From Halobacteriales archaeon YIM A00010 (GTDB lineage Archaea; Halobacteriota; Halobacteria; Halobacteriales; Haloarculaceae), in the NCBI GenBank assembly GCA_025041175.1, contig JAKCFJ010000003.1:744001-808000 (forward strand): DNA of 64,000 nt, given 5' to 3'. Shown here piece after piece: positions 13,911-28,437 of this stretch (positions are counted from its first letter, which is position 1; each line of letters opens with the position of its first letter). Position numbers and translations under genes: made by a program. Below the pieces are notes generated by a model. The model saw nothing but the letters and a program-made list of their open reading frames with translations. It searched no databases and was not told where the DNA came from.

Positions 13911-14543
13911 TCACCCCTCCAAGAAATCTCCGTATTGGACAGCCATTCCGAAATCGCCAGCGTGGTCGATCGAGATCTGGTGAGCCTCTCTGGCACCGTC
14001 GTCAGCCCAATCACGCTGAATTTCATAGAGGACTTGGGCCCAGGTGACCGGCGTCGCGCCCGCGTTCACCATCCGCTCGAGCGCATGTTCGTGGTCGGCG
14101 GTCGTCCGACCCCCACAAGCGTCAGCCACCACATACACGTCGTAGCCTGCTTCGAGCGCCGAGAGTGCGGCGAAGCAAACACACACCTCCGTCCAGAGGC
14201 CAGCCATGACTAGCCGATCCTTACCAGTCGCTTCGACGGCCTCGACGTACGCCTCATTTTCCCATGAATTCAGCGTCGTGCGGTCGATCACCGCTTCGTC
14301 CGGGAAGACGTCGCGAATTTCCTCGAAGAGTGGTCCATTGTGTTCCCTACCGATAGTCGAAAGCACGACCGGAATATCGTACACATCTGCCGTCTTTGCA
14401 AGACCACCGACGTTGTTTTGGAGTGCTCCAGTCTCGATCGTATTGACGCCAAGTATCATCTCTGGCTGGTGGTCGATGAATGTTATCGCGCAGTTCTCCC
14501 GCGTGAGTAACCGTTCGCTCGGCGTTGCTGTTGCGTTTGTCAT
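13911..14543 (-). CDS. Isochorismatase-like cysteine hydrolase (YcaC type)
   Basis: This protein of about 210 residues has the family triad: Asp24 in FIDHQPEM, Lys108 in TGKDRLVMAG and Cys121 in LWTEVCVCF, followed by the cis-peptide region. These residues catalyse amide or ester hydrolysis in nicotinamidase/isochorismatase relatives. The long WENEAYVEAV segment and EVCVCFAALSALEAGYDVYVV resemble YcaC-like hydrolases of unknown substrate. The ATG at 14543 is preferred; another ATG at 14555 would add four residues. There are no operon partners. Confidence 0.88.
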   Translation of the reverse strand: MTNATATPSERLLTRENCAITFIDHQPEMILGVNTIETGALQNNVGGLAKTADVYDIPVVLSTIGREHNGPLFEEIRDVFPDEAVIDRTTLNSWENEAYVEAVEATGKDRLVMAGLWTEVCVCFAALSALEAGYDVYVVADACGGRTTADHEHALERMVNAGATPVTWAQVLYEIQRDWADDGAREAHQISIDHAGDFGMAVQYGDFLEG

Positions 14544-15610
14544 AGTGCCTCCCATCCTGCTACTGTCGTACTCACTGGTCGTCTAATCCGCTAGTTCCGT
14601 TCGACGACTCCCGCGAGTACGGCGTTAGCGAGCACTCATAGTTCGCTGGTACTGAGTATAAACATTAGGTTATCACAGATATCTTACTTTTTTGTTATCA
14701 TCATGCCCAACCTAGAAGGACGCAAAGCACGTTCTCGACATGGATCTCACAGTAATCAGATGAGTACGACCCAACGTTCACGACCGACATGCAGCCGTTG
14801 AGTGACGCCTGAGATCGAGGGCGAACTCGCTGAAGATGAAAAGGACATTTTCTAATACTTAATCCAGAAGGACCGACGCTCCGATGGTGAGGAGACGATC
14901 GCAGCCGACGAGATACCTGAGATTCTGCTCACAGAGCGCTACTTCGACCCCAACATAGAGTGAAAGCGTTCGTGTGATCTGTTAGATTAGTATACAGAGC
15001 AATCACTGCTGATTCCGACCTGTAATCCAATTGTCCATCGGAGGCATCAAGAGGACGGGGAATTGCTATCCAAGTGCCCGGTGATCATCGAGGTCGTTGC
15101 TGGACGCACGGGATGGCCAGTTAACAACGGTTGGGAGATCCAAATGGCCTAGGCCTCTCATCAGACATCGAAAACAATGAGCGGAGACATCCTGATCGCT
15201 ATGGTCTGTGATCCGAATACCTCGGCTATGGTGTCGCGATGAATATTACTAGCTGCCCGAGATTGTTGGGATTGTAATTATATATGATACAATTCGATAT
15301 GGCGAACACGACGGGATTGAAGTCGTTCGCAAGCGGAGCTTGCACAGGCTGTTGTATTAATGTGAGACAACACCATACGCATTACATCCATACGTCTGTA
15401 ATCGGCATGTCCATTTTGCTCTAGTCACTACTTCGGTGGGTCCACACTATTCTTGGATTTCTGGGTCAGCCTTCCGATTACAGCCGGGATGAAAAATGTT
15501 CGGTACTCCGACCGCTCTTCATGGTAATTGTATCCTTCAGCCGCCAGATAATATATTCATAATATGTTTATTTCTAGTGATTCGTCCTGGTAACACCCGA
15601 GAACATCACG
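14544..15610. other. Eroded stretch without an intact gene
   Basis: About 1.07 kb without a gene. Short protein-like runs broken by stops occur, for example EGELAEDEKDIF then YLIQKDRRSDGEETIAAD near 14817-14915, and EVVAGRTGWPVNNGWEIQ near 15089-15145. This is the pattern of old, heavily mutated genes. I could not identify the sources. Base composition falls below that of neighbouring genes. Confidence 0.4.
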
Positions 15611-15760
15611 AAGCCAGTAGGGGATGTCATTGCCATACCGCTCGTAGCGGGCATGCTATCCCAGATCGGAATGCTGCTCCCACCGGTAGTCGGGATCGTG
15701 CTGATGTCGCTCAGCACGATAATTGTGGCGATCAACGCGCAACTGCTTCGCCTGACTCAA
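15611..15760 (+). pseudogene. C-terminal remnant of a heavy-metal (copper-type) P-type ATPase
   Basis: The frame reads [20 protein letters not shown] and then [18 protein letters not shown]. This is the final pair of membrane helices characteristic of P1B-type copper/heavy-metal ATPases, where the family has AIPLAAG, LSPAVGA and [16 protein letters not shown]. Nothing of the catalytic DKTGT or ATP-binding domains is present, so only the tail survives. Metal-efflux pseudogenes recur nearby (cation diffusion facilitator at 17.4 kb). Confidence 0.75.
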
Positions 15761-16115
15761 TATCTTAAACCTACCGGGAACGTCTGTATCCGCTCTATCA
15801 ACGGAATCGGCAGCGGTGGAGGTGCACGAATATTCACTCTGTTCGATAGACGTCCCCTGATTTGCTGGCTTGCAGACACCCCCAATCGTCCGACTTCTCC
15901 GAAACGATCGCCTCGCTGTTCTATCCCGACGCACCGAATGACGTCACACTCTCCGCGTATAACGATCTCGAACCAGCAGGCAAGACTGCCGATGAGTCTC
16001 CTCCAACGCCAAACCTATCGGTCTGAACTGGTCGCTGCTCTGAGAGCCTGCCTAGGATTAAGTTGATTCGGGAACAACTCAGACATGGTGGCTTACCACC
16101 AACGAGGGATCATCC
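15761..16115. other. Stretch after the ATPase remnant, no intact gene
   Basis: An acidic run ([20 protein letters not shown], about 15890-15950, plus strand) lacks a start and may be the tail of another lost gene. The right end carries the leader of the cupin gene. Confidence 0.35.
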
Positions 16116-16484
16116 ATGTCAGATACCAATATCACGGATGACAGTCAGTTTTTCTGGGCCGAGGATGAGGACGGATACGTTGCGTACGACGACTGTGAAG
16201 TAGACGCCCGTACGCACGGCGCAGACAAAGCCAGCGAACCCCACACGCACGACGAAGCCCATATCATCTTCATGCGCACCGGTGAGATGCATTGGGAGGT
16301 CGGTGACGAGGAGTACGATGCCACACCGGGTGATACGATCGTCACTCCTGCCAGGACCGAGCATAAATTCGAAGTCGTGGGAGACGAACCGGCCAAGACG
16401 ATGTGTCTGATCGCACCCGCGCGACCACCCGACGAACAGGGGCAGTCCGGCGCACACGAGATCACCAAGCCCGACGAAGTCTAG
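16116..16484 (+). CDS. Small cupin-domain protein
   Basis: This single-domain cupin has 122 residues. Metal-ligand motif 1 appears as HTHDEAHIIFMRTGEMHWEVG (His, His and a glutamate at the usual spacing), and motif 2 as PGDTIVTPARTEHKFEVVG with the last histidine. Such proteins bind a divalent metal and act as dioxygenases, isomerases or small-molecule sensors. No catalytic specificity can be read. The acidic composition is typical of haloarchaea. It stands alone upstream of a convergent VOC gene. Confidence 0.82.
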   Translation: MSDTNITDDSQFFWAEDEDGYVAYDDCEVDARTHGADKASEPHTHDEAHIIFMRTGEMHWEVGDEEYDATPGDTIVTPARTEHKFEVVGDEPAKTMCLIAPARPPDEQGQSGAHEITKPDEV

Positions 16485-16627
16485 AACAAGACTCGCATGA
16501 AACGCAGCCGATCGAGCAGCCACGGCCTCGCAGCGATCCATACATCCAAGACGTTCACGCGAGATTATAGGCTCTCCCAGCCACGACGGCACGTCTCGAG
16601 TGTCGTTCTATTCTGTATCTTCTGTCA

Positions 16628-17242
16628 TCAGGATGTGGGGAAGTCGTGACGTTCGACCGGCAGATCGAGCTCTTCGATGGCTGCTTCGAGGTGTTCTTCC
16701 TTGGCGTATTCCGCCCCCGCCTCGACGCGCTTTTGCTGGGCGAGCGCGAGCGCTTCGCCGCGCTGGTCGTCGGGAATCTCGAACTTGTCGGCGGCGAGTT
16801 CGATGGTGAGTCCGTTGTGGTCGTACGTGTATATCGACCGGAAGATGCCACGGTCGACCTCGCTGTATCGGTGATCGTGCGCTTCGAGTGCCTCACTGAT
16901 CTCGGCGAGGCGTTCGGGCTCGTATCTGAACGCGAGATGGTGGACCGCGCCGATGCCCGGTCGTTGCGCCCCCTGATGTGACTGGCGGTCTTCTTCGACG
17001 AAAAACGTGAGAATTCGGCCATCACCTGTATCGAAAAACAGGTGAGTCACGTCGGGCGCGTCGAGGTTCGGCTGACGCAGCACCAGCGGCATTCCAAGTA
17101 TGTCGCGGTAGAACCCGACTGTGTCCTCGATGTTGCTCCCGACGAGGGTAATGTGGTCTACCCCGGCGAGCTGAGTCGCACTATCGGGACGCTCGGCTGT
17201 CACGGGCACTCCGTCATTGGTCGTCGATTGGTCGTCCGTCAT
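16628..17242 (-). CDS. VOC (glyoxalase/extradiol dioxygenase superfamily) protein
   Basis: This 204-residue protein starts with about 25 polar residues, followed by a VOC fold: LAGVDHITLVGSNIEDTVGF with a metal-ligand histidine near 30, VTHLFFDTGDGRILTFF near 65, AVHHLAFRYEPE with a second histidine near 100, and YTYDHNGLTIEL with the ligand glutamate near 147. A polar, helical C-terminus of about 50 residues ends the protein. The pattern fits glyoxalase I-like or ring-cleaving dioxygenase relatives. The substrate is unknown. Confidence 0.85.
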   Translation of the reverse strand: MTDDQSTTNDGVPVTAERPDSATQLAGVDHITLVGSNIEDTVGFYRDILGMPLVLRQPNLDAPDVTHLFFDTGDGRILTFFVEEDRQSHQGAQRPGIGAVHHLAFRYEPERLAEISEALEAHDHRYSEVDRGIFRSIYTYDHNGLTIELAADKFEIPDDQRGEALALAQQKRVEAGAEYAKEEHLEAAIEELDLPVERHDFPTS

Positions 17243-17397
17243 TGTTGCACTCTGTTAGTAGATTCGTTCCCGAACCGCTAAAACGCTTGGAGGCATCACT
17301 GTAATCAGGTGACATTGGTGTCAGTACTAGGGAAAAATACAGGCGCAATTCATCGATCATCGGAACGTGGAGAAGGTGTCAAAGTCCACGTACTCGT

Positions 17398-17708
17398 ATG
17401 AGAAGATACGACCACGATACCGAGACCAGTTTGGAAGGCAGAAGCGTTCGAAAGCTCGGACTGGTCGCAGCAATCAATGTTAGCGGATTCATTATCGAGT
17501 TTTTCGGTAGTCTCGTCTTTGGCTCAGTTGCACTTCTCGGAGATGCTCTCCATATGCTATTCGATGCGCTCGCATACACTGTCGCACTCGGAGCGACGTG
17601 GATTGCCCATCAGTCAAATCCGTCCGGTCAGTGGACCTATGGATTTCATCGCGTTGAACCGTTCGCGGCGTTTCTGAACGGCATTCTTCTCGTTCCAATG
17701 ATACTGTT
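17398..17708 (+). pseudogene. Cation diffusion facilitator (CDF) metal efflux pump, N-terminal fragment
   Basis: The frame gives a typical CDF N-terminus: a basic lead, then RKLGLVAAINVSGFIIEFFG (helix 1), SVALLGDALHMLFDALAYTVAL with the metal-site aspartates of helix 2, and WTYGFHRVEPFAAFLNGILL leading into helix 3. Homology stops at about 17705, where an unrelated HxlR-type regulator sequence begins in another frame. About two thirds of the pump is missing, so it cannot transport. The junction looks like a deletion that joined two genes. Confidence 0.82.
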
Positions 17709-17710
17709 AC

Positions 17711-17931
17711 CTTGTGGAAGGTGAAAAGCGGTTCAACGAGCTCAAACGCTCTACTGGAGCGAGTTCTCGAACACTTTCACGCGTCCTCAACGATCTCCAA
17801 GAGATGGGGTTCGTTACCGTCGACTCGAAGAGGATGCCCCTGTTGCAACGTACTACGCACTAACGGAGAAGGGGAGATCGCTTTGCCCCGTTTTCAACGA
17901 AATCGAAGCGTGGGCAGAAGAGTGGATCTAG
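17711..17931 (+). pseudogene. HxlR-family winged-helix regulator, truncated and frameshifted
   Basis: In frame 2 the sequence reads LVEGEKRFNELKRSTGASSR then TLSRVLNDLQEMGFV. After a frameshift near 17815 it reads YRRLEEDAPVATYYALTEKG and ends with EIEAWAEEWI before a stop at 17929-17931. This is the core and C-terminus of an HxlR-type DNA-binding protein; the first helix and the start are missing. The regulator is fused to the CDF fragment at a deletion junction. Confidence 0.8.
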
Positions 17932-17968
17932 CGAGAGAGATTAGAGAATGAGATCCCCTGTAGATCGC

Positions 17969-18688
17969 TTACAGCGAGTCAGCGGCAAAACGCGATGCAA
18001 GCCACGCTTCACCACGTTGGAGTCTGTATTGGAAGGTTGATTGCGGGAGATCAAGCTCTTCAGCGATTTCTGCGGCAGTAGCTTTTCGGGAATGGTCGTA
18101 ATAGCCGTATTCGACGGCAGCCTCGAGCGCCGCGCGCTGTTCAGCAGGGAGGTCTGCGATCGTAACTGCATCTTCTCCCCAGTGGGTGGGTGTGTTGAGG
18201 TGTTGTAGGTCCAGTTCGATCCCGTCACAGAGGTCCGTTTGCAACGTATCATAGAGTTCGCCGACAGCAGCCTCCTCGGGCAATAGCACCTGCCAACGAT
18301 ATCGGTGTTCGCGCCGGGTTGTCTCGAAGAGAAGACCATCGCCAAGCTGTTCCGTAGCGAGATATGGAATCGAGTGACACCCCTCTATTTCGGGACGGTA
18401 TGAGTAGATTGTTCGGCTGCGCTCGGTCGCCGTGACGATCTCGCGTTTGTAGTTGCCGTAACAGTTCTGCTCGCCGATACACTCGGTACACCGCTCTGTG
18501 TCGGTGAGAACCCTTTCGATCCTGTCTAATGCCGTTGGTGGTCCGCTGAAACGGTCGAGACGCCACATACTCTCCGTCGTCACCGAACAGGCGAGCGACG
18601 TAGCGATGGTCTGTGGCTGATCGATGAAGACATCCATCAATGGATCACTCTCGGACGCGTATCGAATCGTGAAAGCGAATTCGCGCAT
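17969..18688 (-). CDS. Bacterio-opsin-activator type HTH_10 transcription regulator
   Basis: This 239-residue protein has a C-terminal HTH_10 domain: LPAEQRAALEAAVEYGYYDH, then ATAAEIAEELDLPQSTFQYRLQR near 205-228. The N-terminal sensor region of about 150 residues includes a small cysteine cluster, CTECIGEQNCYGNY near 88-101, that might bind metal or respond to redox state. The gene is divergent from the tfb-spt4-rpoP-like operon. Near-identical 16-base motifs flank the two promoters, one overlapping this gene's own start region (18696-18711). It is the obvious candidate regulator of that operon and of itself. The ligand is unknown. Confidence 0.85.
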   Translation of the reverse strand: MREFAFTIRYASESDPLMDVFIDQPQTIATSLACSVTTESMWRLDRFSGPPTALDRIERVLTDTERCTECIGEQNCYGNYKREIVTATERSRTIYSYRPEIEGCHSIPYLATEQLGDGLLFETTRREHRYRWQVLLPEEAAVGELYDTLQTDLCDGIELDLQHLNTPTHWGEDAVTIADLPAEQRAALEAAVEYGYYDHSRKATAAEIAEELDLPQSTFQYRLQRGEAWLASRFAADSL

Positions 18689-18695
18689 ACCCCTG

Positions 18696-18711
18696 GTTCG
18701 GTATCTACCAA
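18696..18711. promoter_or_regulatory. Operator-like repeat, copy 1
   Basis: GTTCGGTATCTACCAA lies 8 bases upstream of the HTH_10 gene start, just downstream of its likely TATA box (TTAAT near 18711-18715 on the complement). It differs at one base from copy 2 at 18759-18774. The core GGTA-N2-TACC is palindromic. Position and repetition suggest the binding site of the adjacent regulator. Confidence 0.65.
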
Positions 18712-18758
18712 TTAATGCTCTTGGCTATTCGGCCCACTGTTGGCACATCTCGGAAGTA

Positions 18759-18774
18759 GTTCGGTATATACCAA
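18759..18774. promoter_or_regulatory. Operator-like repeat, copy 2, overlapping the tfb TATA box
   Basis: GTTCGGTATATACCAA repeats copy 1 with one mismatch, 63 bases downstream, which is almost exactly six helical turns. The central GGTATATACC is a perfect palindrome and contains TATATA, which is about 50 bases before the proposed tfb ATG and could be the promoter TATA box. Binding here would block or direct transcription initiation of the tfb operon. Confidence 0.65.
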
Positions 18775-18823
18775 CCCAACCATCAAGCCCGTTCAGCCCC
18801 TATCCAAAGATAGAGCATTGACG

Positions 18824-19888
18824 ATGCTCCCTGGTGGTTGTCTTACAGCGCAACCACCTCAAACTGTCACCCCTGTACAAGAAACCATCGCGAATCCGAC
18901 CGACGTCACTGCGTATCGGGACACTGATCAGACCAGTACGACGACCGAGACCGCTACCGAGGATGAGCGGCACGTCTGTCCGGAGTGCGGCGGCCGACTC
19001 GTGGACGATACCGAGCACGGCGAAACCGTCTGTCGAGACTGCGGGCTCGTCGTCGAGGAGAACGAAATCGACCACGGTCCGGAGTGGCGCGCGTTCGATA
19101 GCCAGGAACGGAACGAGAAAAAACGAACTGGTGCACCCACGACGAAGCTGATGCACGACAAGGGGCTGTCGAGCCAGATCGGCTGGCAGGACAAGGACGC
19201 CTACGGCAATTCCTTGTCAAGCCGTCAACGCCAGAAGATGCAGCGCCTGCGTACGTGGGACGAACGCTTCCGGACCCGCGATTCAAAGGAACGCACCCTC
19301 AAGCAGGCACTCGCTGAGATCGAGCGGATGGGATCGGCACTCGGTCTGTCGAAAAGTCTCCGGGAGACTGCGTCGGTAATATTCAGACGCGCGCTTGCTG
19401 AAGACATGCTTCCGGGGCGCTCCATCGAAGGTATCGCTACCGCAGCCGTCTATGCTGCTATCCGGCAGACCAACAAGCCTGTCACAATCGGCGATGTCAC
19501 CACCGTGAGTCGCGTCGATGAAATGGAGTTCAAGCGAGCATACCGATACATCGTTCGGGAACTCGACCTCGAAATCGCACCACCAGATCCGGAGGACTAC
19601 ATCGCGAAGCAAGCGTCCGCCCTTGACGTGAGTGATGAACTCGAAGGGCGCTCGCACGAAATCCTCCGGAGGGCGAAAGAGAAGGGGCTCCATAGTGGCA
19701 AGAACCCTGTCGGTCTCGCCGCAGCCGCGCTCTACTCTGCGGGTAGACTGACGAACGAGCAGCTCACCCAGGCGACGGTGAGCGATATCGCGGGCGTCAG
19801 CACTGTCACCATTCGGAACCGCTATCAGGAACTGATGGAAGCTGAAGAAGAACGACAGGCACAGACACAGGAGGGGACTGCGGACTAA
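18824..19888 (+). CDS. tfb: Transcription initiation factor B (TFB) paralogue
   Basis: The protein has about 354 residues from the ATG at 18824. This start is chosen because the earlier in-frame start at 18740 precedes the probable promoter. After a polar, threonine-rich lead of about 45 residues come the zinc ribbon CPECGG...CRDCG, the B-finger region (DHGPEWRAFDSQERNEKKRT) and two cyclin-like repeats (core near 125-220 and 225-315) ending NRYQELMEAEEERQ. TFB recruits RNA polymerase to TBP-bound promoters; haloarchaea carry many paralogues that direct gene subsets. The stop overlaps the next start (TAATG), so it is translationally coupled to an Spt4-type gene. That is not the usual neighbour for TFB. 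Confidence 0.93.
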   Translation: MLPGGCLTAQPPQTVTPVQETIANPTDVTAYRDTDQTSTTTETATEDERHVCPECGGRLVDDTEHGETVCRDCGLVVEENEIDHGPEWRAFDSQERNEKKRTGAPTTKLMHDKGLSSQIGWQDKDAYGNSLSSRQRQKMQRLRTWDERFRTRDSKERTLKQALAEIERMGSALGLSKSLRETASVIFRRALAEDMLPGRSIEGIATAAVYAAIRQTNKPVTIGDVTTVSRVDEMEFKRAYRYIVRELDLEIAPPDPEDYIAKQASALDVSDELEGRSHEILRRAKEKGLHSGKNPVGLAAAALYSAGRLTNEQLTQATVSDIAGVSTVTIRNRYQELMEAEEERQAQTQEGTAD

Positions 19889-20082
19889 TGCCGGCCCTCC
19901 GTGCGTGTCGTGAATGTCACAGCGTGCATGATGCGGATACACAAGTCTGTCCCATCTGTGGATCGTCCAGTCTCAGCGAGGACTGGGCAGGCTACGCCGT
20001 AATTGCTCATCCAGAGGAATCCGAGATCGTCGAATTGATGAACGTCACCACATCCGGTCGCTACGCGCTGAAAGCACGTTAA
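19888..20082 (+). CDS. spt4: Spt4/RpoE''-like transcription elongation factor
   Basis: This 64-residue protein matches archaeal Spt4 over its full length. The zinc-binding cysteines are in LRACRECHSVHD and QVCPICGSSSLSEDWAGY, followed by VIAHPEESEIVELMN and the ending GRYALKAR. Spt4 pairs with Spt5 to close the RNA polymerase clamp and support elongation. The gene normally sits beside rpoE' (rpo7). Here it overlaps the tfb stop by the A of TAATG and is followed by an RpoP-like gene, so this is probably a second, accessory copy. Confidence 0.92.
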   Translation: MPALRACRECHSVHDADTQVCPICGSSSLSEDWAGYAVIAHPEESEIVELMNVTTSGRYALKAR

Positions 20083-20100
20083 TTCGTACAATTCGTTCTT

Positions 20101-20271
20101 ATGAACAGCGCTACCAACACTCAGACAACCACCTCGACGGAGTACAGTTGCACGAAGTGTGAACGTACATCAACTCTCAATGGACACAATAGTCTTCGAT
20201 GCCCATACAGTGGCCATCGAGTTTTCCTCAAGAATCGTGATCGAGACGTGAGAAAAGTTGAGGTTCAGTAA
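20101..20271 (+). CDS. RpoP/Rpo12-like RNA polymerase subunit paralogue with a lost zinc ligand
   Basis: This 56-residue protein begins with about 14 threonine-rich residues, then shows the RpoP (Rpb12) pattern: YSCTKCERTSTLNG, LRCPYSGHRVFLKNRDRD and a final VRKVEVQ. Canonical RpoP has four zinc cysteines, CxxC...CPYCGHRV. Here the last is serine (CPYSGHRV), leaving three. It lies 18 bases after the Spt4-like gene on the same strand. It may be an alternative subunit of RNA polymerase or a decaying duplicate. The reading frame is intact. Confidence 0.82.
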   Translation: MNSATNTQTTTSTEYSCTKCERTSTLNGHNSLRCPYSGHRVFLKNRDRDVRKVEVQ

Positions 20272-20984: not shown

Positions 20985-21722
20985 ATGATGGACGTTACTG
21001 ATCACGACGTAGTAATCGTCGGGAGCGGCCCCGCGGGATTGTCGGCTGGGATCTTCACGGGTCGGGCAGGACTCGACACGCTGATCGTTAATGACGGCAC
21101 CCCGATTCTCCGGCGCAATGCACACTTGGAGAACTATCCCGGATTTCCGGCTGGCGTCAACAGTCGACTCCTCTTGGACATGATGGATGATCACGCCGAA
21201 CGGGCCGGGTGTCAGCGCCGCGAGGCACGTGTCGTAGCAATCGAGCCGGATGATCCGGGGTTCGTCGTTGAGACGGAATCCAACAACACACTCACTGCAA
21301 CCTCTGTCATCGCCGCGACTAAGAACACCGTCGACTTTCTCGAAGGGATCAACGATGTGAAACTCATTGAGCGAGGCAAGTCGTTCGTTAAAACCGACGA
21401 CAGGGGGCGGACCGGCGTTCCAGGACTATACGCCGCAGGCAGACTCGCCCTTCAGCCTTACCAGACCATCATCGTTGCCGGTCACGGCGCGTCTGTGGGG
21501 GTAGCAGTAGTTGAGGATTCAGACACCCCCTTCTACCACGACTGGGTTGCCCCAGAAGGATACTTCACTGGCCGCAATCGCGAGGTTCCGCCGGGTTGTG
21601 AGGAGATCGACGCAGAAGAGCGCCAGCGCAGAGAACGTGAATCCCTCAATCTCATGCGCGAATACTTCGCCGAACCGCATCCCGACGATCCGATCCAGCA
21701 TCCGAGCATGCGCGGCGAATAA
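20985..21722 (+). CDS. FAD-dependent pyridine nucleotide oxidoreductase, thioredoxin-reductase-like without CxxC
   Basis: This 245-residue protein begins with the FAD dinucleotide motif DVVIVGSGPAGLSAGIF and ends its core with GVPGLYAAGRLALQPYQTII, the second FAD contact. The NADPH-binding insert and the redox-active CxxC of true thioredoxin reductases are missing, and the protein is about 60 residues shorter. A charged tail of about 50 residues follows (EEIDAEERQRRERE). It probably is a short flavoprotein oxidoreductase of unknown partner. The preceding ATAACTAT near 20957-20964 may be its promoter element. Confidence 0.8.
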   Translation: MMDVTDHDVVIVGSGPAGLSAGIFTGRAGLDTLIVNDGTPILRRNAHLENYPGFPAGVNSRLLLDMMDDHAERAGCQRREARVVAIEPDDPGFVVETESNNTLTATSVIAATKNTVDFLEGINDVKLIERGKSFVKTDDRGRTGVPGLYAAGRLALQPYQTIIVAGHGASVGVAVVEDSDTPFYHDWVAPEGYFTGRNREVPPGCEEIDAEERQRRERESLNLMREYFAEPHPDDPIQHPSMRGE

Positions 21723-21987: not shown

Positions 21988-22350
21988 CTATAGGTTGTTC
22001 CAGTCATGGTCACGGAGATATCTCTCGAAAGTAGTGAACACAATGTCGTGTCTCTCTTCGAATGCGGCAATGTCGACGGCGTACCCTTCCGCACTGCTCT
22101 GCCGAATGATCGCCGCGACCTCGCTACCCGGGGAGTTCTCGATCGGTATATATGTGGGCTCGATAGTCTCACCGATGTACTGCTCCGGTGCAGCGAAAAC
22201 GTCTGCGACGAACCGACCATAATCGTTGACATCGAGCATCTGTATCGCTGTCTCATTCTCAAGCGGGAGAGCGAACGTCCCCTCCTGGATATCCCTACGG
22301 CTTTGTTCGACGTTATACATGAACCCGACCGGTCTCGAACTCCACGTTCC
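21988..22350 (-). pseudogene. NmrA-like NAD(P)-binding protein, C-terminal fragment
   Basis: The minus-strand frame reads RPVGFMYNVEQSRRDIQEGT, then LPLENETAIQMLDVNDYGRF and VADVFAAPEQYIGETIE. This is the substrate half of NmrA/atypical SDR proteins, where RPVGFMENF follows the Rossmann domain. The NAD-binding N-terminus (GATGxxG) is absent; in-frame stops interrupt further upstream. An ATG at 22320 could still start a 110-residue peptide, but it would lack the cofactor domain. Confidence 0.75.
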
Positions 22351-22583: not shown

Positions 22584-23036
22584 TCAATCGTAGCCTTTCC
22601 GGAAGCTGCGAAACTCGCTCCGATGGGATTCCTCGTCGCTGAGGATATCAATGGCGAGGTCTTCGGTGACCGGATCGTCCGCCTCTCTGGCGGCTTCCAT
22701 GAGCGACCGATACGTCTCGATTGCGTCTTCTTCGTACTCGATAACGCCATCGATGACCGAGAGCACGTTGGCCGTGTCTTCCGGTGGTTGGAGTGCTTCT
22801 TGTTCCGGCTCGAATTCGAACGAGGCCGGGGGCTGGGCATCGAGTTCCTTCAGACGCTTTCCGATTCGCTCAGCGTGAATGAGTTCTTCCTGTTTCGCGT
22901 CGGCCCGGAGGCTTTCTTTGACTTCCTCTGCGCTGACTCCGTCGAGGACGGTCGCGTTCGTCAGGTAATTCATCACGGTCTCGATCTCGTCGTTGTAGGC
23001 GCTTCGGAGTAGCTCTATCACCTGTTCGTTTGTCAT
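22584..23036 (-). CDS. Ferritin-like di-iron protein
   Basis: This 150-residue four-helix protein has ferritin-like iron ligand pairs: SAYNDEIETVMNYL (Glu near 17), AKQEELIHAERIG (E..H near 51-55), EYEEDAIETYRSLM (Glu near 101-106) and DILSDEESHRSEF (E..H near 133-137). This matches the rubrerythrin/bacterioferritin-like or Dps-like ferritin superfamily without a rubredoxin domain. It probably stores or oxidises iron or scavenges peroxide. It is monocistronic. Confidence 0.85.
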   Translation of the reverse strand: MTNEQVIELLRSAYNDEIETVMNYLTNATVLDGVSAEEVKESLRADAKQEELIHAERIGKRLKELDAQPPASFEFEPEQEALQPPEDTANVLSVIDGVIEYEEDAIETYRSLMEAAREADDPVTEDLAIDILSDEESHRSEFRSFRKGYD

Positions 23037-23581
23037 ATGATGTCGCTACTCAATGCAGAGTCTTAGAGATATGGGTTCGGTAGAGTCCCTTTCGATTGAA
23101 GTCTGGAGCACGAGTCGCTCCACCGAAACATCCAAGATTACCGCATACGACGTATCTATAGGCTGATTTTCGTCATATTCGACACGGATTAAATATCTTC
23201 AGTTCATGTCTATAGATATAGCAGCTTGTTGTATCGCCGTCGCACTCAACCCAGTGAGCATGCGCTCACTTGTACGTTCCCTACTTCGGAGAATGGATTC
23301 CTGCAAGCGGATTTTTCTCAGTAGAATCTGTATGGAACTTGCAATGTGGCGTCAATACAGGGCTTCATTCAGTATGCTACTTGAGCCGAGCTCGGCTCGG
23401 TTTCTCCTGGAGTGCTCGCTGGATCTGAGGGAAGGACACGGTCGCTTCGAATGCTTCCCCCGCAAGCGGTCACTCCTCCGGACGCTTCGCAGATGCAGTC
23501 TGTCGCCCGCTTGGAGCAGCAAGCGGTGGGTCCTCTCGCCAGAGTCGAAACAACAATCGGGTAAGGCTCATCCACTAGGGT
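23037..23581. other. Intergenic stretch of about 540 bases
   Basis: No gene could be supported. It contains a perfect 16-base palindrome, GAGCCGAGCTCGGCTC (23383-23398), followed by a T-rich run, which might be a terminator stem or a protein-binding site. The left part (23150-23220) is A/T-rich and may hold old promoter sequence. Confidence 0.4.
23383..23398. repeat. Perfect 16-base palindrome
   Basis: GAGCCGAGCTCGGCTC is fully self-complementary and followed by GGTTTCTCC. It lies in a gene-free stretch upstream of the quinone oxidoreductase gene. Function unknown. Confidence 0.4.
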
Positions 23582-26630: not shown

Positions 26631-27215
26631 TCAGCCTTCGTCAGGAACTGGTTCAACAGATGAACTCTCGAACGACGGAAGCCGTGATTCGATCTCGCTG
26701 CGCTCGTTCTCTAACCACTCCGGCAGCGCGAGATCCGTTCCGAGTTCGTCCTGACTCTGATCGACAGTGAAGCCGGGACCCATCGTGGCGATCTCGAACA
26801 GGACGCCACCCGGTTCGCGGAAGTAGATCGATTTGAAGTACACCCGGTTGATGATGTCGGTGGCGCGAAGCCCCTGTTCGCTCAGTTGCTCGCGCCATCG
26901 TTCCCGTTCGTCCGTGTCCTCGGCCTTGTAGGCGACGTGATGTGCCGTGCCGACGCCATTCGGCCCCGTTCATGATCTGTTTCAACGAGGTCAGCAATAG
27001 AGCCGGGGCCGCCGGCAGCAGAGCGGTACGGTGACGACCGTTCTCCTCGGCTTCGAACTCGTAGCCGAGTGTGTCGGTTAGCACCGTGGCGGTCGGGTCG
27101 ATGTCGCTGATGGCGAGGGTGACGCTGTGAAAGCCGCGCAACTGGTGCTCTGTGGGAACGGGGCTTTCCTCCCACGGCTGACCAGCGTTCGATTGTATCG
27201 ACCATCGGATAGAGC
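26631..27215 (-). pseudogene. Ring-cleaving dioxygenase-type VOC protein, 3' half with a frameshift
   Basis: The upstream frame gives QPWEESPVPTEHQLRGFHSV, then TLAISDIDPTATVLTDTLGYEFEAE, typical of the middle of two-domain VOC dioxygenases. Near 26967 the frame changes and continues VGTAHHVAYKAEDTDERERW, IYFREPGGVLFEIATMGPGF and a C-terminus ending PVPDEG. The first VOC domain and the start are missing. With one frameshift and a lost N-terminal half it should be non-functional. Confidence 0.78.
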
Positions 27216-28096: not shown

Positions 28097-28437
28097 GTGA
28101 AAACCGTCCTCCACGCAGCTGACGGAAGCGATAATGTCCAAGATGCCGCGATCCGGCACGCAAGTGGTGTTTTTGAAGACGACTCAGTGGAGACCGATGC
28201 TGTCGCGGTAGTCGCGAACGCAGCGGGCATCGAACTCGTTCGGTCTGATTCAGTCCATTCCGAGGATATCACGACACTCTCCGAGAAAAACGTCTGCTTT
28301 ATTTCATAAGAAAAATTAGTGGAGACATCTAGACTGACGCATGATGATATCCTTGATGTTGTCGAGACTGCCCAACCTCTGTCGGCATACTTACCCAACT
28401 ACAGGAAATTGGATATCGGTACATCAAGGTGCATTGA
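28097..28437 (+). pseudogene. DsrE-family sulfur-relay protein, eroded
   Basis: From a GTG at 28097 the frame reads MKTVLHAADGSDNVQDAAIR, then SVETDAVAVVANAAGIELVR, which is typical of haloarchaeal DsrE-like proteins. It hits a stop at 28309, where the conserved cysteine region (about CACRNTL) should follow but is scrambled. The family C-terminus reappears in another frame as SVGILTQLQEIGYRYIKVH, ending at 28437. At least one frameshift and a damaged middle make it a pseudogene. Confidence 0.75.

Follow-up and report, generated by a model that had tools for sequence, protein, structure and literature searches.

A paralogue of the initiation factor TFB, encoded on a secondary replicon of a haloarchaeal genome, is followed directly by a second copy of the gene for the elongation factor Spt4, and the pair faces a divergently transcribed HTH_10 regulator across a region with two palindromes. 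Such TFB-Spt4 pairs recur in other haloarchaea and have been transferred between families. We propose, with somewhat less than even confidence, that they represent a regulated, horizontally transferred alternative TFB with its own Spt4, which shares the cell's sole Spt5 and alters promoter escape and early elongation. Haloarchaea are known to possess many TFBs, and the wider interest lies in a possible role of TFB paralogues beyond promoter choice. A TFB accompanied by its own Spt4 offers a natural case, open to experiment, in which a set of initiation and elongation factors may be swapped around one shared Spt5.

Organization of the locus

The cassette lies on a 0.93-Mb contig (C3), a secondary replicon of a 5.97-Mb, seven-contig haloarchaeal genome. 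The whole stretch of this contig that was analysed, 64,000 nucleotides long, is referred to below as the window. Its features are as follows:

17717..17931, + strand: fragment of a small HTH gene, 76% DNA identity to locus L032, 6395-6610
17969..18688, − strand: regulator with HVO_2928_N (PF24281, 227 bits) and C-terminal HTH_10 (PF04967, 47.1 bits against a gathering score of 23.1) domains, divergent from TFB
18697..18711, + strand: candidate palindromic operator on the regulator side, TTCGGTATCTACCAA, a unique exact match in the genome
18760..18774, + strand: candidate palindromic operator on the TFB side, TTCGGTATATACCAA, a unique exact match in the genome
18824..19888, + strand: TFB paralogue (PF08271 and two PF00382 repeats), likely start ATG 18824
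19888..20082, + strand: Spt4 paralogue (NF041664, 82.2 bits, cut-off 50), 71% identical to the canonical Spt4 of the genome
20101..20271, + strand: RpoP/Rpo12-like ORF (PF03604, 24.1 bits), with the fourth zinc ligand changed from Cys to Ser
22584..23036, − strand: ferritin-like gene, its DNA 88-92% identical to the gene beside Halalkalicoccus-type TFB-Spt4 cassettes
23083..23290, + strand: promoter and leader from a TFB-Spt4 cassette of Halalkalicoccus type, orphaned by loss of the coding part

A preliminary description of this DNA had reported a tight run of TFB, Spt4 and RpoP-like genes with a divergent HTH_10 regulator, and all four genes were recovered at these positions. The TFB frame is open from TTG 18740 to 19888, and its first ATG, at 18824, is likelier to be the start than TTG 18740. 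The protein has an N-terminal zinc ribbon (69 bits) and two cyclin-like repeats. Its score against NCBIfam PRK00423, 366.9 bits, is below the curated cut-off of 384, but since this cut-off belongs to a subfamily model, the assignment to TFB stands. The TFB stop and the Spt4 ATG overlap as CTAATG, and the gap between Spt4 and the RpoP-like ORF is 18 nt; judged by this layout, the three genes form one tight predicted operon and would be co-transcribed. The four-cysteine zinc ribbon of the cassette Spt4 is complete (C7, C10, C21 and C24). In an alignment, the four cysteines and the DWAG motif are kept in the cassette Spt4s, as is the C-terminal core, except in one frameshifted copy.

The canonical spt4 is located on another contig (C1), in the run aIF2-gamma, PIN, rpoE, spt4 (the neighbours were identified from their translations, not by profile search), and the canonical rpoP is on the same contig. 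The cassette copies are thus not the only spt4 and rpoP genes in the genome. The genome encodes one Spt5, and a search of it for a second found none, so that the cassette Spt4, if it acts as Spt4, must share Spt5 with the canonical Spt4. TFB genes, counted from search matches, number about 16 full-length and three partial.

Erosion of the genes around the cassette, also noted in the preliminary description, is real. Broken or truncated genes lie at window positions 17398-17951, 20985-21722, 21988-22320, 26631-26843 and 28097-28309 and comprise cation efflux, small HTH, thioredoxin-reductase-like and NmrA-like genes, the C-terminus of a ring-cleaving dioxygenase and a DsrE-like fragment. The neighbours in common with H. 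pallidirubidus (the small HTH gene and the ring-cleaving dioxygenase) are fragments, and the frames of the cassette are all open. The HTH fragment at 17717..17931 is a relic of the shared neighbourhood, since in H. pallidirubidus the gene sits just after rpoP. Window positions 14000-17328, which encode a hydrolase, a VOC protein and a dienelactone hydrolase, match a Halocatena salina plasmid in two pieces at about 90% DNA identity. Sequence likeness suggests that the organism is close to Halocatena.

Downstream, the window carries the scar of a second cassette. Positions 22586-23277 are 88% identical to the ferritin-like gene and cassette promoter and leader of Halalkalicoccus jeotgali. The match stops about where TFB starts and is located about 2.3 kb downstream of the window cassette. 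Judged by this relic, the replicon has seemingly encountered each of the two cassette versions.

Distribution and history of TFB-Spt4 pairs

An spt4 is present in all 391 Halobacteria genomes searched, and in five of them another copy scores over the curated cut-off: this genome, those of H. jeotgali B3 and a congener, and a pair of congeneric genomes from a different family. The additional spt4 of each of the five comes immediately after a TFB gene, and no other second spt4 occurs among the 391 genomes. A 23-bit match in a further genome (G002) falls under the cut-off and was dismissed. The start of spt4 overlaps the TFB stop in four of the five; in the remaining genome (G209) the intact frame uses a GTG start about 15 nt farther downstream. 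Among PLSDB plasmids there are only two genuine spt4 genes, both adjoining such a TFB. With two Haladaptatus loci added, the TFB-Spt4 cassettes number seven, in four genera. Another candidate, in G400, was rejected, its spt4 being the canonical Haladaptatus copy. The cassettes are mostly on secondary replicons, and those of H. pallidirubidus and H. jeotgali are on plasmids.

The H. pallidirubidus locus repeats the window's order of regulator, TFB, Spt4 and RpoP, so the gene order does recur in another genome. As to whether the genes co-occur beyond chance, a point raised in the preliminary description, the answer is positive for TFB and Spt4, given the five of five second copies; the three-gene form is known from two loci only.

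In the phylogeny, all seven cassette TFBs fall into one clade of 14 (support 94/85) within a set of 16 (99/96), and the same clade includes TFBs without Spt4. In the Spt4 tree a single origin is not rejected (AU p 0.55), the 66 columns being too few to show one origin; the cassette copies have long branches and evolve faster than the canonical ones. At the four Halalkalicoccus-type loci, the DNA around the cassette is 91-98% identical across two families, which indicates recent transfer. The TFBs have diverged to about 66-70% identity, and even at this distance the TFB-Spt4 linkage, the overlap of stop and start codons and the core of Spt4 are maintained. Because the TFBs belong to one clade, the Spt4s are compatible with one origin and the Halalkalicoccus-type DNA is nearly identical, the seven loci do not represent independent events. 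A fair reading of these comparisons is that TFB and Spt4 would have been joined once, retained together during TFB divergence and then spread horizontally.

An accessory RpoP-like gene

RpoP is the third cassette gene in only two of the seven loci, the window and H. pallidirubidus. The core unit is therefore TFB-Spt4, RpoP is accessory, and its standing as an equal, conserved member of the cassette is ruled out. Like canonical RpoP/Rpo12, the window protein aligns over the whole ribbon and the basic C-terminus, but it is only 47% identical to the canonical RpoP of its own genome, its match to PF03604 is marginal (gathering score 24), and it falls under the NCBIfam equivalog cut-off (NF001606, 53.6 versus 72 bits). 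Its zinc ribbon reads C-x2-C...C-P-Y-S (CPYSG) and departs from the CX2C...CX2C pattern; since CPYS replaces the second CX2C pair, one zinc ligand is lost. All four zinc cysteines are retained in the H. pallidirubidus cassette RpoP. The two cassette RpoPs are mutually 37% identical, and canonical haloarchaeal RpoPs (n=13) hardly differ among themselves. Among the 391 genomes, the only other clear rpoP paralogue is in G129, distant from any TFB, apart from a contig-end duplicate in G223. The second RpoP of G129 (L161, 1501-1641) is diverged; it keeps the four zinc cysteines, carries an insert of 3 residues and has no TFB nearby. RpoP used as a search query against the genome contigs gave no matches.

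In Pyrococcus, RpoP is required for promoter opening and is located by the wall and protrusion, in the vicinity of the TFB/TBP complex; when its third and fourth cysteines are changed to serine, it is loosely bound and the wild-type subunit displaces the mutant (PMC2680338). By analogy, the window RpoP, in which only the fourth cysteine is replaced, may be a weakly binding subunit.

A divergent regulator and paired palindromes

The two candidate operators are the only exact matches to the palindrome in the genome, and both lie between the regulator and TFB. Six further loci carry an orthologous regulator, each time divergent from a TFB of the cassette clade. A TTGGYNNNNRCCAA-like palindrome pair is present in five of these six; in L107 the TFB-side copy alone is clear. 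The observed palindrome scores were matched by 0 to 18 of 1000 shuffles, figures which are supportive yet not independent, because the consensus was derived from the same regions. The regulator-side palindrome lies downstream of a TATA-like stretch and ahead of the start codon, a geometry conserved in most of the related loci, and this position argues for autorepression. Downstream of the TFB-side palindrome, at a distance of 7 nt, comes a TATA-like box, well defined in L114 and L115 but poor in the window; the location of this palindrome just upstream of BRE/TATA points to control of the TFB operon, probably by activation. Halalkalicoccus-type loci are without the HTH_10 regulator and operators and have a plain TTTAAATA promoter instead. 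A genome-wide search for further operators returned two one-mismatch sites beyond the pair, versus one in the reversed-pattern control, so no genome-wide regulon is claimed.

The C-terminal HTH regulators Bat and DmsR belong with HTH_10. The window regulator resembles these Halobacterium proteins in its Bat-like C-terminal HTH and in having an upstream regulatory site near the promoter (PMC1447603), but differs in its HVO_2928_N N-terminus, in its palindrome and in its apparent target, a general transcription factor.

Possible function and alternative explanations

In the mechanism that we propose, the HTH_10 protein would bind the two palindromes of the divergent intergenic region, repress its own gene and control the TFB operon, probably by activation, the sign being deduced from operator position. 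Once the operon is on, the TFB paralogue would bring RNA polymerase to its promoters, and the co-produced Spt4 paralogue would compete with the canonical Spt4 for the cell's one Spt5, whose NGN domain is the part that Spt4 binds. Spt4/5 is known to displace TFE during promoter escape (PMC7289017). The variant Spt4/5 taking over from TFE at this step could thereby alter escape and early elongation of the transcripts started by TFB. The RpoP-like protein would be an optional addition acting at promoter opening near TFB, and the window copy may bind polymerase weakly. One stimulus would then pick promoters and also change the Spt4/5 arriving there. Backing for such a module comes from the invariable position of the second spt4 after TFB, the single TFB clade, the canonical spt4 and rpoP elsewhere, the conserved Spt4 core, the paired palindromes, the purifying selection on TFB and the open frames of the cassette amid fragmented neighbours. 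It is weakened by the signs of Spt4 decay given below, the same-clade TFBs without Spt4, the ligand loss in the window RpoP and the lack of the regulator at Halalkalicoccus-type loci, and further by the failure to find a second Spt5 or a regulon in the genome.

The main rival explanation is that the cassette is an ordinary plasmid-borne TFB paralogue under selection, with Spt4 (and RpoP) as redundant, decaying hitchhikers; we consider it a real but minority possibility. Between two Halalkalicoccus-type lineages the dN/dS of TFB is 0.06-0.09, indicating strong purifying selection, versus about 0.5 for the Spt4 of Halalkalicoccus-type cassettes, a value based on about 15 changes only and indicating weaker purifying selection. 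In H. jeotgali the cassette Spt4 has lost its C-terminus through a frameshift, and in H. caseinilyticus an unannotated TFB with an apparently broken 5' end is accompanied by an spt4 reduced to its first codons. From the dN/dS and these two cases it follows that Spt4 may be dispensable: TFB is the better-kept member and Spt4 can be lost. The missing zinc ligand of the window RpoP and the existence of same-clade TFBs lacking Spt4 point in the same direction. Mere passengers, however, would not readily account for a stop/start overlap and an Spt4 core that endure across the divergence of the TFBs, nor for the confinement of second spt4 copies to this one position.

It is unlikely that the cassette serves a replicon or mobile-element programme, expressing plasmid genes selectively and spreading with plasmids. 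The plasmid location of the H. pallidirubidus and H. jeotgali copies, the secondary replicon carrying the window copy, the near-identity of the DNA from two families, with transposases in the vicinity, and the relic of the second cassette type in the window would all fit, but the neighbours differ by lineage, the stretches compared have no genes for replication or transfer in common, and relatives of the cassette Spt4 were not found in phage records or in IMG/VR contigs, where the search detects close relatives only. The suggestion in the preliminary description that the unit could be a mobile transcription switch survives in part: the cassette has moved horizontally between families, on plasmids and near transposases, but the evidence does not support a self-moving element, and the case for a switch lies only in the dedicated regulator and the conserved paired operators.

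Slightly less likely again is a role of the Spt4 and RpoP variants as inhibitors or titrators, which would bind Spt5 or polymerase but work poorly and so depress transcription in general, leaving the TFB to serve stress genes. A precedent exists in TFS4 of Sulfolobus, a cleavage-factor paralogue turned polymerase inhibitor (PMC5715097, PMC7289017); the cassette Spt4s have long branches, and the change in the window RpoP resembles the loosely bound zinc-ribbon mutant (PMC2680338). Yet that Pyrococcus mutant is displaced by wild-type RpoP, which would make it a weak inhibitor, and the cassette Spt4s retain their conserved core. A virus origin, as a phage transcription module, was rejected for want of relatives in phage records and of close relatives in IMG/VR contigs.

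Relation to known transcription systems

We class the cassette as a variation on the known haloarchaeal multi-TFB system. Members of the expanded TFB families, e.g. in Halobacterium NRC-1, serve different environmental responses (PMC4230888). The window TFB is likewise full-length and one of many, but is joined to Spt4; two loci add an RpoP-like gene, and several have a dedicated HTH_10 regulator. The cassette Spt4 shares with the canonical Spt4 (RpoE'') of Spt4/5 the four zinc-ligand cysteines, DWAG, the C-terminal motif and a score over the equivalog cut-off; it differs in being a faster evolving second copy that resides in a TFB operon rather than beside rpoE. Sulfolobus TFB3 and TFS4 are also basal transcription factor paralogues with new regulatory roles (PMC7289017, PMC5715097), but they are single proteins, whereas the haloarchaeal cassette is a linked initiation-elongation set. 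The open-access literature searched, a scope that takes in few subscription papers and preprints, yielded no account of either a TFB-Spt4 or a TFB-Spt4-RpoP cassette, and RefSeq annotates the parts individually.

The arrangement suggests that several components of the transcription machine may be exchanged at once in a cell. More tentatively, and with some doubt, the cassettes may define a class of alternative initiation factors that come with an elongation-factor subunit of their own, joined in two cases by a subunit of RNA polymerase, as a transferable unit coupling promoter choice with opening, escape and elongation. If so, two operators, one regulator and two or three genes would make a compact system for studying changed archaeal transcription machinery.

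Near the H. jeotgali TFB-Spt4 cassette, a gene annotated as 'TFIIB cyclin-related protein' (L033, 2251-2925) lies beside a DUF4396 gene, and DUF4396 also occurs after the cassette in L080 and L082.
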